From the NCBI RefSeq assembly GCF_900109365.1, contig NZ_FNZR01000002.1, positions 434,001 to 498,000 of the forward strand: a stretch of DNA of 64,000 nucleotides, in the 5' to 3' direction. A model generated the notes under the pieces. It made no database searches. It saw only the letters and a list, made by a program, of their open reading frames with translations, and had not been told where the DNA came from. Origin of the DNA: Parapedobacter koreensis. GTDB lineage: Bacteria; Bacteroidota; Bacteroidia; Sphingobacteriales; Sphingobacteriaceae. Shown here piece by piece: positions 48,671 through 53,707 of the stretch (position 1 is the first letter of the stretch; each line of letters begins with the position of its first letter). Position numbers and translations under genes: made by a program.

Positions 48671-50077
48671 ATGCAATACGACGTCATTGTAGTCGGTAGC
48701 GGGCCCGGTGGTTATGTGGCCGCTATCCGTTGCGCGCAACTAGGCTTGAAAACAGCCGTTATCGAAAAATATAATACGTTTGGCGGCACCTGCCTTAATG
48801 TGGGATGTATTCCCTCAAAGGCCCTATTGGATTCGTCCGAACATTACCACAATGCTGCCACGCACTTCGGCTCCCATGGCATCAACCTGAGTAACCTCCA
48901 GGTAGACATGAAGCAGATGATAGCGCGGAAGGACGATGTCATTGCCCAAAATGTATCCGGCATTGAATTTTTGTTCAAAAAGAATAAAATAGACAGCTTC
49001 ATTGGTGTGGGTTCTTTTGTAGACAAAAACACTGTCAAGGTGACGAAGAGCGATGGCTCTTCGGAGCAAATCACAGGTCAAAACGTGATTATCGCCACCG
49101 GATCAAAACCCACCGCATTGCCGTTTCTCCCGGTAGATAAAAAACGAATCATTACCTCTACCGAGGCGTTGACACTTAAGGAGGTGCCCAATCACCTCAT
49201 CGTCATCGGGGGCGGGGTCATCGGGCTGGAGCTTGGCTCGGTCTACGCCCGCTTGGGAGCCAAAGTATCGGTTGTGGAATACGAAAAATCCATCATTCCG
49301 ACAATGGACGGTGGCTTAGGCAAGGAGTTGCAACGGGTATTAAAGAAATCCCTTGGCATGGAGTTTTTCCTCGGGCATAAAGTCACTGGTGCCACAGCCA
49401 AGGGCAAGAAGGTGACCGTCACGGCGGAAGACTCCAAAGGAGAAGCCGTGAAATGGGAAGGCGACTATTGTATCGTGGCCGTAGGCCGTACGGCCTATAC
49501 CGAAGGGCTGGGCTTGGAAAATATCGGCATTACCCTGGAAGAGCGCGGCAAAAAAGTACCGGTGAATGAACACCTCGAAACCCCGGTACAAGGCATTTAT
49601 GCCATCGGCGATGTGATCCGGGGAGCCATGCTTGCCCACAAGGCTGAAGACGAAGGTGTTTTTGTGGCCGAACGCATTGCAGGCCAAAAACCACACGTCG
49701 ACTATAACCTGATACCCGGCGTCGTATATACTTGGCCTGAGGTAGCCAGCGTAGGGAAAACGGAAGAACAGCTGAAGGCTGCGGGCCAAAAATATAAGAC
49801 CGGTTCCTTCCCCTTCAAAGCCAGTGGCCGCGCCAAGGCGAGCGGTGACACCGATGGCTTTGTCAAAGTGCTGGCCGACGCCGAAACCGACGAGGTACTG
49901 GGCGTGCATATGATAGGCCCACGTGCGGCCGACATGATTGCCGAGGCTACCGTGGCGATGGAATACCGTGCATCCGCAGAGGATATTGCCCGGATCTGCC
50001 ATGCGCATCCCACGTTTACCGAAGCATTCCGGGAAGCTTCCCTTGCGGCAACGGCCAACAGGGCCATACACATGTAA
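48671..50077 (+). CDS. lpdA: dihydrolipoyl dehydrogenase (first copy)
   Basis: Lpd (E3) reoxidises dihydrolipoamide of 2-oxoacid dehydrogenase and glycine-cleavage complexes with NAD+. The 468-residue product shows the FAD site VIVVGSGPGGYVAAIRCAQL, the redox disulfide in FGGTCLNVGCIPSKALL (Cys 41, Cys 46), the NAD site VIGGGVIGLELGSVYARLG, the second FAD motif GIYAIGDVI and the catalytic His-Glu dyad in HAHPTFTEAFREA. GGTCLNVGCIPSK is the mitochondrial/alpha-proteobacterial-like variant and differs from the second copy at 51079. Monocistronic, ending in a long hairpin. Confidence 0.96.
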   Translation: MQYDVIVVGSGPGGYVAAIRCAQLGLKTAVIEKYNTFGGTCLNVGCIPSKALLDSSEHYHNAATHFGSHGINLSNLQVDMKQMIARKDDVIAQNVSGIEFLFKKNKIDSFIGVGSFVDKNTVKVTKSDGSSEQITGQNVIIATGSKPTALPFLPVDKKRIITSTEALTLKEVPNHLIVIGGGVIGLELGSVYARLGAKVSVVEYEKSIIPTMDGGLGKELQRVLKKSLGMEFFLGHKVTGATAKGKKVTVTAEDSKGEAVKWEGDYCIVAVGRTAYTEGLGLENIGITLEERGKKVPVNEHLETPVQGIYAIGDVIRGAMLAHKAEDEGVFVAERIAGQKPHVDYNLIPGVVYTWPEVASVGKTEEQLKAAGQKYKTGSFPFKASGRAKASGDTDGFVKVLADAETDEVLGVHMIGPRAADMIAEATVAMEYRASAEDIARICHAHPTFTEAFREASLAATANRAIHM

Positions 50078-51017: not shown

Positions 51018-51078
51018 TAGCCACCGTATTTTGATTGGACAACGCAAAGTGAATCAATCTCAAGAAACAATTAACTAT

Positions 51079-52467
51079 ATGAACTACGACATCATTGTAA
51101 TCGGGAGCGGACCAGGTGGTTATGTAGCAGCCATCAGGGCTTCCCAACTTGGTTTTAAAACCGCTATTGTAGAGCGGGAATCCTTGGGTGGCATCTGCCT
51201 CAATTGGGGATGTATCCCCACCAAGGCGCTACTCAAGAGCGCCCAGGTATTTGAGTACCTTAATCATGCGGAAGAATACGGCATCAAAGTAAATGGCGGC
51301 GAGGCCGATTTCGGTGCCATTATCAAACGTAGCCGTGGTGTTGCCGACGGGATGAGCAAAGGCATCCAGTTCCTGATGAAAAAGAATAAGATTGACGTGA
51401 TCACGGGTGTTGCCAAAATCAAGAAAGGCGGCAAGGTGGAGGTCAAAGATGCTGAGGGTGCGACAAAGGAGTACAGTGCAAAACATACCATATTGGCTAC
51501 CGGCGCACGTTCGCGCGAGCTGCCCAACCTGAAGCAAGATGGCAAACGGATTATTGGGTACCGCCAGGCCATGAATCTTGAAAAACAGCCCAAATCTTTG
51601 GTGGTCGTCGGATCCGGGGCCATCGGTGTCGAGTTTGCTTACTTTTACAATGCCATCGGCACCAAGGTGACCATCGTGGAATTCCTTGACCGCATCGTGC
51701 CCGTAGAAGACGAAGAAATATCCAAACAATTGGAGCGTAGCTTGAAGAAGGCCGGCATTACGGTGCTCACCAATGCAGAAGTCCAATCCGTAGATACTTC
51801 CGGCGAACTCAGCAAGGTGCAAGTCAAAACGGCAAAAGGTACCGAAACCATCGAAGCCGAAACCGTGCTTTCCGCAGTGGGTATTACCCCAAATATTGAA
51901 AACATCGGATTGGAAGAAGTAGGGGTCAAAACGGAAAAGGGCCGTGTGGTGGTAGATGATTTCTATAAAACCAACATCGCCGGTATTTATGCCATTGGCG
52001 ATATCGTGAAAGGCCAGGCATTGGCGCACGTAGCCTCCGCTGAGGGCATTACTTGTGTTGAAAAAATAAAAGGGCTGGATGTATCGCCCATCAATTATAA
52101 CAACATACCGGGCTGTACTTATTGCTCGCCCGAAATTGCGTCTGTAGGCTATACCGAAAAAGCGGCCAAGGACGCCGGTTATGAAATCAAAGTGGGCAAA
52201 TTTCCATTTTCAGCATCTGGCAAAGCCAGCGCCGCCGGCGCGAAGGATGGCTTTGTAAAGGTCATCTTCGATGCCAAATACGGTGAGTTTCTGGGAGCCC
52301 ATATGATTGGCTCCAACGTCACCGAAATGATTGCCGAGGTGGTTGTGGCCCGCAAGCTGGAGACCACGGGACACGAAATCATCAAATCGGTGCACCCGCA
52401 CCCCACCATGAGCGAAGCCATTATGGAAGCTGCCGCTGATGCGTATGGTGAAGTGATCCATCTATAA
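51079..52467 (+). CDS. lpdA: dihydrolipoyl dehydrogenase (second copy)
   Basis: The 462-residue product is a second E3-type flavoprotein. The FAD site is IIVIGSGPGGYVAAIRASQL, the disulfide is in LGGICLNWGCIPTKALL (Cys 40, Cys 45), the NAD site is VVGSGAIGVEFAYFYNAIG, with GIYAIGDIV and the dyad HPHPTMSEAIMEA. GGICLNWGCIPTK marks the pyruvate-dehydrogenase-type E3 of many Gram-positive and Bacteroidota strains. The ATG at 51079 gives the normal N-terminus; the 16 codons upstream in frame are unrelated. No E1/E2 genes are near either copy. A very long hairpin follows. Confidence 0.95.
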   Translation: MNYDIIVIGSGPGGYVAAIRASQLGFKTAIVERESLGGICLNWGCIPTKALLKSAQVFEYLNHAEEYGIKVNGGEADFGAIIKRSRGVADGMSKGIQFLMKKNKIDVITGVAKIKKGGKVEVKDAEGATKEYSAKHTILATGARSRELPNLKQDGKRIIGYRQAMNLEKQPKSLVVVGSGAIGVEFAYFYNAIGTKVTIVEFLDRIVPVEDEEISKQLERSLKKAGITVLTNAEVQSVDTSGELSKVQVKTAKGTETIEAETVLSAVGITPNIENIGLEEVGVKTEKGRVVVDDFYKTNIAGIYAIGDIVKGQALAHVASAEGITCVEKIKGLDVSPINYNNIPGCTYCSPEIASVGYTEKAAKDAGYEIKVGKFPFSASGKASAAGAKDGFVKVIFDAKYGEFLGAHMIGSNVTEMIAEVVVARKLETTGHEIIKSVHPHPTMSEAIMEAAADAYGEVIHL

Positions 52468-52473
52468 CAGGAG

Positions 52474-52521
52474 TCCGGAGACCGACGATGGAAGTTTAAA
52501 TTTCCATCGTCGGTCTCCGGA
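52474..52521 (+). terminator. 20-bp perfect hairpin after the second lpdA
   Basis: Twenty bases (52474-52493) are perfectly complementary to 52502-52521 with an eight-base AT-rich loop. There is no T run. It begins seven bases after the stop codon, so it probably terminates or protects the mRNA 3' end. Confidence 0.65.
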
Positions 52522-52579: not shown

Positions 52580-52610
52580 TTTACCTAAGCTAAAACAATT
52601 ATTATATTTG
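52580..52610 (+). promoter_or_regulatory. promoter of the actin-like gene
   Basis: TTTA (52580-52583), a 19-base spacer and TATATTTG (52603-52610) lie 23 bases before the ATG. The position shows that the gene starts at 52634 and has not lost a 5' part. Confidence 0.65.
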
Positions 52611-52633: not shown

Positions 52634-53707
52634 ATGGCAACAAAATTCCTAAGTATCCCCAGTGTTATTGAGCGGCATGACAAACCCTTAACGCAGCTCA
52701 CGTCTGCCCTGGAGAAACGCATTCAACTATTTGAAGGCGATGGTGGTTTTTTGGTAGGCGACTTGGCACTATCCCAAGGGCATGTTCCCTACCGCAACAT
52801 CAACAGCTCTCCTTCCGACATGGATTATCAATTGCTGGCCAAAACGGGGTTACTCTTGGCCTCCGGGGCTAAATCCGGCGAATTGGTGGTGACTACGGGC
52901 TTCCCTTCGGCAGTCTACGAGCTGTTCAGACAACAAGCGGAGAAGTTCTTTGCCGTGCGTGACGTCATTACCGAGTACAATAGCGACACCCTAAATGGTG
53001 GCGGCAGGAGCCGTGTACAACTAACTATCTCCCATTTGGAGGTCATGTCTGAAATTATGGGCTGTATCAATGCGGTTCGAAAAGGACCGTTGGCAGACAA
53101 TGGCAATTTCTTCATTGTAAGCTTGGGCTATGGCACCTGTGAAACGGCTTTAAGCACAGCTGAAGGCCCCATCGCGCGGACATGCGTGAGCGTTCCGGGA
53201 CTTCGGCATGCTGTCAATACGCTCTATGACGAGTTGAGTGCCAGCTATTACCTCTCCATGAAAAACGAACACATGATCAATCAGAGTTTCCAGCGTGGGG
53301 ATATGGTCATCGGTCGAAAGCGCATGAGCCTGCTCGGCGCAAGGAACAGCCATTTGGCGAGCTATTACGATGAAGTACTATCGCCAGCGATGCGGAAAGC
53401 TTTTACAGACACTGACTTCGAAAAAACCAACCGGTTGTATTTGGTTGGCGGCGGTGCAAAATATCCCGAATTGGTCGCGCATTTCAAGCAGGAATTTGAC
53501 GGTGTACTTGACGTCATCGTTCCCGAAGGCGCTGACAATTTTGCCGCATTGGGGTACTACTTACGGTCGGCCCTATGGTGTGGCCCCAATCACATCGAAC
53601 GTGCGGTAGGGCTCGATATCGGCAATGCATATACCGTTATTTCTACCCATGAGGCTGAAAAACCCGTGGCCAAACAAGAAGAGGTATCGGCATTCCTGGA
53701 AGATTGA
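52634..53707 (+). CDS. actin-fold (ParM/Alp-like) protein, apparently circularly permuted
   Basis: The 357-residue soluble product resembles plasmid/phage actin-like proteins, but in a shifted order. The N-terminus (FLSIPSVIE ... GGFLVGDLALSQG, 5-49) matches the part normally after the first hairpin. VVTTGFPSAVYELF (85-98) follows. A phosphate-2-like IVSLGYGTCETALS (161-174) has Ser where Asp is usual. The adenosine motif is LYLVGGGAKYPEL (268-280), and a connect-2-like NFAALGYYL is at 302-310. The phosphate-1 motif VGLDIGNAYTVIST (325-338), normally at the very N-terminus, comes last. A promoter just upstream shows the start is genuine. No ParR-like partner is adjacent. Function unknown; filament formation is a guess. 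Confidence 0.75.
   Translation: MATKFLSIPSVIERHDKPLTQLTSALEKRIQLFEGDGGFLVGDLALSQGHVPYRNINSSPSDMDYQLLAKTGLLLASGAKSGELVVTTGFPSAVYELFRQQAEKFFAVRDVITEYNSDTLNGGGRSRVQLTISHLEVMSEIMGCINAVRKGPLADNGNFFIVSLGYGTCETALSTAEGPIARTCVSVPGLRHAVNTLYDELSASYYLSMKNEHMINQSFQRGDMVIGRKRMSLLGARNSHLASYYDEVLSPAMRKAFTDTDFEKTNRLYLVGGGAKYPELVAHFKQEFDGVLDVIVPEGADNFAALGYYLRSALWCGPNHIERAVGLDIGNAYTVISTHEAEKPVAKQEEVSAFLED

Follow-up and report, generated by a model that had tools for sequence, protein, structure and literature searches.

Does a gene of Parapedobacter koreensis encode an actin-like ATPase whose chain has been naturally circularly permuted, and if so, what might such a protein do? The window, a stretch of 64,000 nucleotides of contig NZ_FNZR01000002.1 (positions 434,001–498,000), carries on its forward strand an open reading frame (P0001, window positions 52634–53707) with an ATG start and 357 codons for amino acids. 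Its motifs follow the order post-hairpin region, phosphate-2, adenosine and phosphate-1. Residues 1–140 (52634–53053) correspond to the rest of subdomain I/II past the phosphate-1 hairpin, cover positions 18–145 of the ALP_N profile and close with Glu140, an invariant residue that corresponds in alignment to the NEP Glu of Hsp70. The phosphate-2 motif IVSLGYGTCETALS (residues 161–174, 53114–53155) includes SLGYGT at residues 163–168, with Ser163 instead of the usual Asp, and the adenosine motif LYLVGGGAK (residues 268–276, 53435–53461) includes LVGGGA at residues 270–275. The phosphate-1 motif VGLDIGNAYTVIST (GLDIGNAYT, residues 325–338) lies in a C-terminal β-hairpin (residues 324–339, 53603–53650, same strand as the other motifs), and the N-terminal region of the protein has no DxG motif. 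The chain ends in a disordered tail (residues 343–357, 53660–53704, pLDDT below 50); operon members have a shorter tail than the orphan subfamily. These positions, first proposed in a sequence-only reading of the window, are borne out by re-reading of the DNA.

Truncation or mis-calling of the gene, combined with a fortuitous DxGxxxT string near its end, would give the same picture; nothing favors such an artefact except the unusual motif order itself, and we give it practically no credence. An in-frame stop codon is located 15 codons upstream of the ATG, and a promoter box of the Bacteroidota −7 type, TATATTTG, is present 23 bases before the ATG (52603–52610, forward strand), as a consensus match only; an exact-consensus −33 element was searched for this gene and not found. 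Comparison with Parapedobacter relatives gives pN values of 0.05–0.11 against pS values of 0.74–0.81, indicating that the gene is maintained under strong purifying selection. Finally, all 63 distinct full-length homologues that we found in Bacteroidota have the permuted order, with in-frame stops ahead of the start codon, which refutes both a chance motif and a truncation and upholds the claim that the N-terminus is intact. Further upstream, a perfect 20-bp inverted repeat with an 8-base loop (arms 52474–52493 and 52502–52521), terminator-like and read directly from the sequence, separates the gene from a dihydrolipoamide dehydrogenase gene; this repeat, 3′ of the second dehydrogenase gene, was missed by the terminator scan. 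The region carries two distinct dihydrolipoamide dehydrogenase-like genes on the same strand, at 48671–50077 and 51031–52467, about 950 bases apart.

The native protein matches Pfam ALP_N (PF17989) with 33.6 bits (E = 5.6e-8, profile positions 18–145), above the curated cut-off of 26.3 bits; a sub-threshold MreB-like_C match was also detected in Pfam, and no match in NCBIfam. When residues 318–343 are moved to the front, the ALP_N score rises to 43.0 bits and the match spans profile positions 1–145, the hairpin supplying the 17 missing start positions. A search with a reordered version had been proposed by the sequence-only reading; the specificity of this gain also speaks against an artefact. 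Profile-profile comparison gave a concordant result. With hhalign, the family profile was aligned to 13 ordinary ParM/Alps of phage and plasmid origin: the native order yields two out-of-order matches, q3-307/t21-309 (score 137.0) and q322-331/t5-14 (21.5), and the rotated order a single collinear match, q3-329/t5-309 (147.0; hairpin plus core, 150.5), while control rotations remain split (77.4 and 117.4). The HMMER scan of rotation points peaks at the hairpin, with small differences, and the HMMER-only rotation test is weak, since placing the hairpin before the core brings a mean gain of 1.58 bits, equalled by 2 of 150 shuffled hairpins; the case for permutation relies on the profile-profile and Pfam tests instead. 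In the PDB sequence search, three query stretches match Hsp70/BiP chains in rotated order (query 320–340 to chain 5–25, 126–182 to 163–221, and 251–317 to 317–384). The hairpin is not a chance motif, because it completes ALP_N, aligns to ParM/Alp positions 5–14 and is invariant in 63/63 homologues; judged from these alignments, the motif order as a whole is likewise not attributable to chance.

The AlphaFold2 model of the protein has an actin fold (pLDDT 87.2, pTM 0.87), with the hairpin strands 324–329 and 333–339 in blocks of pLDDT around 92–93. The model of a divergent member, L067, is similar (pLDDT 92.3, pTM 0.91; strands 322–327 and 331–337). Foldseek ranks Ta0583, Dh-cParM1, pCBH ParM and CorM at the top, with a best E value of 2.9e-14 for Ta0583 (entry 2fsk), and VIA-align 2 gives its best Z scores of 27–28 with the chromosomal ParM 8x1i over 305–306 aligned residues. 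In sequential alignments to ParM, MreB, actin and Hsp70, model residue 1 falls at target residue ∼18–24; over the entries without a numbering offset, model residue 1 or 2 falls at ∼18–29, and the value is higher in offset entries such as BiP, CorM and BeeR. VIA-align 2 aligns the model from residue 1 or 2 to ∼312–322, with chain ends near 285–412, and leaves the hairpin without a counterpart, the outcome that any sequential aligner is bound to give for a permutant. The structure prediction proposed at the outset has yielded two models with an actin fold, ParM-like by sequential alignment. Together, the sequence, profile and structure tests support the proposal that a ParM/Alp-type actin fold has been naturally circularly permuted, and we consider it almost certain that the window gene encodes such a permutant.

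Sequence and profile show that the chain begins in the β2/β3 loop of subdomain IA and proceeds in the usual order to the C-terminal helix, after which a short linker leads to the phosphate-1 hairpin. The first strand of canonical actin folds is close to the C-terminal helix, so that an intramolecular fit requires only a short linker, and the hairpin is probably placed within its own molecule. Alternatively, it could act in trans by donor-strand exchange, entering the open lobe of the following subunit, the swapped hairpins holding a polymer together. Every member does have its hairpin at a free chain end, following a short linker, and such an insertion is sterically conceivable, but the linker present suffices for the intramolecular fit and AlphaFold2 is confident for the monomer including its hairpin, a result that is not decisive; we judge the exchange to be improbable.

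The active site is nearly complete. Asp328, Gly330, Asn331, Glu140, Gly272 and Gly273 are found in 63/63 homologues, as is Gly326, and Thr334 in 62/63. The phosphate-1 Asp, the hydrolytic Glu and the adenosine Gly-Gly being kept, the protein probably binds ATP through this actin site. At the phosphate-2 Asp position, the Ser pointed out by the sequence-only reading proves to be family-wide: 60 homologues carry Ser, two Gly, one Asn and none Asp. D199S mutants of Hsc70 hydrolyze ATP slowly. Ser163 falls in alignment at the site that is altered in the D199S Hsc70 structures (PDB 1qqm is named so), and the family-wide Ser represents a natural counterpart to these engineered D-to-S mutants. From the loss of the phosphate-2 Asp we infer slow ATP hydrolysis, and the missing residue could even leave weak or no hydrolysis.

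The family is Bacteroidota-wide and every member is permuted. Its hairpin is C-terminal in 63/63 homologues, 11–38 residues from the chain end as counted from the GN dipeptide, and no homologue has a genuine additional N-terminal DxG motif, which would have spoken against permutation; the single DxG-like string near an N-terminus among the 63, LFDAGAGF in L005, is a chance occurrence. Genome searches located homologues at nine places in 7 of 100 genomes of relatives, and the family in 24/395 Bacteroidota genomes and 12/171 genera. A pattern scan of contigs returned 42 family loci, in Parapedobacter, Sphingobacterium, Olivibacter, Daejeonella, Mucilaginibacter, Cyclobacterium, Lunatimonas, Pleomorphovibrio, Mongoliitalea, Dysgonomonas, Massilibacteroides and metagenome-assembled genomes; the scan relied on narrow patterns, which members such as L066 would escape, and confinement of the family to Bacteroidota is thus unproven. 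When 296 Bacteroidota genomes were searched with ALP_N for a non-permuted close relative, only permuted members came up (profile starts 16–21). Two irregular copies were met: in Dysgonomonas sp. Marseille-P4677 (L048:5995-7012), the gene is broken into two frames near residue 266, by pseudogenization or a sequencing error, with both flanking bactofilins present, and L072 (G211:C101:14421-15425) has one in-frame TAA inside the match.

Among 72,556 plasmids and in viral contigs, no family relatives were found, apart from one weak match to an ordinary ParM-like gene of one Bacillus phage (two records, E = 0.01, 29.5%), and a phage or plasmid origin was rejected on this ground. The same searches bear on a possible role as a chromosomally encoded, ParM-like protein of DNA segregation. 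Such a role could be suggested by the nearest solved fold, Dh-cParM1, which is a chromosomal ParM (PMC12270681); against it stand the lack of homologues in these plasmids and viral contigs, where the phage ParM match is the single, weak one, the lack of a recognized ParR-like partner among the neighbors and the nature of the actual partner gene, a bactofilin. A role in segregation is disfavored and, in our estimate, very unlikely.

The association with bactofilins is well supported as a genomic fact. A bactofilin gene lies immediately downstream, on the same strand, in 36 of the 42 contig-scan loci, a count in which L023 is taken as adjacent (its listed gap being an artefact of the upstream ORF start) and L048 is frameshifted. 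Among 20 further regions, a bactofilin is encoded within 300 bp downstream in 11, one gene away with a gap of ∼1.0–1.2 kb in four, and in a divergent M23-bactofilin pair upstream in one; four have none in the fetched flank (none is present there in L096, L098, L100 and L108). Pfam confirms PF04519 (bactofilin) and PF01551 (M23 peptidase) at the operon loci. A second bactofilin and an M23 peptidase are often near the family gene, the second bactofilin being upstream in the operon copies of Dysgonomonas, Massilibacteroides, Sphingobacterium and Parapedobacter; the neighbors are otherwise unrelated genes. All 30 family-bearing genomes that were searched encode a bactofilin, versus 241/390 in the phylum sample, a comparison for which no probability is claimed because the genomes are related. 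Gene adjacency is not proof of interaction.

Several details of these loci deserve mention. The directly downstream bactofilins often match PF04519 from profile position 11–34 only (for example G000:C16:110258-110479, G361:C26:7970-8161 and G118:C125:74148-74375), with full-length matches elsewhere in the same genomes. In L099:4977-9171, an M23 peptidase gene comes first, followed by the genes for the permuted actin, a TPR protein and a bactofilin and by two small membrane-protein-like ORFs; in L106 and L107, the bactofilin is about equally far from the family gene. Three separate bactofilin-actin-bactofilin loci are present in Dysgonomonas mossii (L033, L034 and L049).

The window copy departs from this arrangement. 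It is flanked by the dihydrolipoamide dehydrogenase gene on one side and a LacI-type regulator on the other; no bactofilin is encoded nearby, and this neighborhood is near-identical in named Parapedobacter species. The same genome encodes a paralogue (L091, contig C16) between two bactofilins, preceded by an M23 peptidase; the genome's third bactofilin is on contig C7 and its ordinary MreB on C14. A bactofilin-M23 adjacency is thus seen for operon relatives such as L091 and not for the window copy, whose nearest bactofilins are on other contigs. The description of the gene as encoded alone is correct for this copy and fails for most of the family, which resides in operons with bactofilins. The window copy belongs to a clade of Parapedobacter, S. 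alkalisoli and Olivibacter sequences (support 100/100, stem 0.87) without an adjacent downstream bactofilin; this lack and the long stem suggest that the role of the clade may have changed. The window copy, an orphan paralogue, is a diverged duplicate gone from the operon; it would need to work on bactofilins from other loci of the genome, or it has acquired a related new role. The bactofilin operon is a better lead on function than the lone window copy.

The protein is most likely a nucleotide-binding cytoskeletal partner of bactofilins. The reading as a whole, a natural Bacteroidota-wide permutant with a bactofilin partner that serves as a nucleotide-dependent cytoskeletal element or switch, appears probable to us; the cytoskeletal role in particular is the likeliest, favored with some reserve. 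The permuted protein would bind ATP, hydrolyze it slowly and assemble with, or position, bactofilin polymers, through which the cell-wall peptidase would be reached. Tentatively, the permuted fold might build, together with bactofilin, a composite cytoskeleton that steers a peptidoglycan peptidase, the moved chain ends and the loss of the Asp giving stable, slowly hydrolyzing filaments. The same fold might instead be a non-polymerizing nucleotide switch, or an adaptor for membranes or partners like the FtsA-, PilM- and Hsp70-type regulators, that recruits bactofilin; the phosphate-2 Asp is absent in 63/63 homologues, the bactofilins that usually adjoin or lie near are polymer-forming and could supply the filament, and the weak sequence matches are to Hsp70 chains. 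The closest folds, however, are those of polymerizing ParM/Alp proteins (Z 22–28, against ∼21 for Hsp70), and we hold this switch or adaptor to be possible but rather doubtful.

Beyond the preferred cytoskeletal role, the conserved permuted family would indicate that the phosphate-1 loop of this fold need not be N-terminal and that new chain ends can lie in subdomain IA. Actin-like and bactofilin cytoskeletons are usually studied separately. The operon joins the two, pointing to an unrecognized actin-bactofilin system and offering a handle on cell shape in Bacteroidota. The literature that we searched, mostly without subscription journals, held nothing relevant on naturally occurring circular permutants of the actin/Hsp70 fold or on a bactofilin-actin operon.

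Compared with known systems, the family shares with MreB (PF06723) the actin fold (Z ∼21) and a cell-shape context, and the window protein has no MreB_Mbl match in Pfam scans with E limits of 10 and 1. The archaeal actin homologue Ta0583 (2fsj, 2fsk), the best Foldseek match, differs in its canonical order. Chromosomal ParMs are known (PMC12270681, whose main text mentions neither permutation nor bactofilin). The ParM/Alp proteins (Dh-cParM1 8x1i, pCBH ParM 6izr and Alp7A 5ec0) have the same actin fold over model residues 1–322 (Z 22–28); the window protein exceeds the ALP_N cut-off, and the phosphate-1, adenosine and hydrolytic Glu motifs are common to both. Unlike them, it carries its phosphate-1 hairpin at the C-terminus instead of the canonical N-terminal position, and its family has Ser for the phosphate-2 Asp and is chromosomal with a bactofilin partner, ParR/parC not being recognized. 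As far as the available part of PMC10945521 goes, clustering of bactofilin and M23 genes is known and no actin-fold partner of the BacA-LmdC morphogenetic module is described; the operon copies sit with the same pair, a bactofilin and an M23 peptidase, to which the permuted family adds an actin-fold protein.
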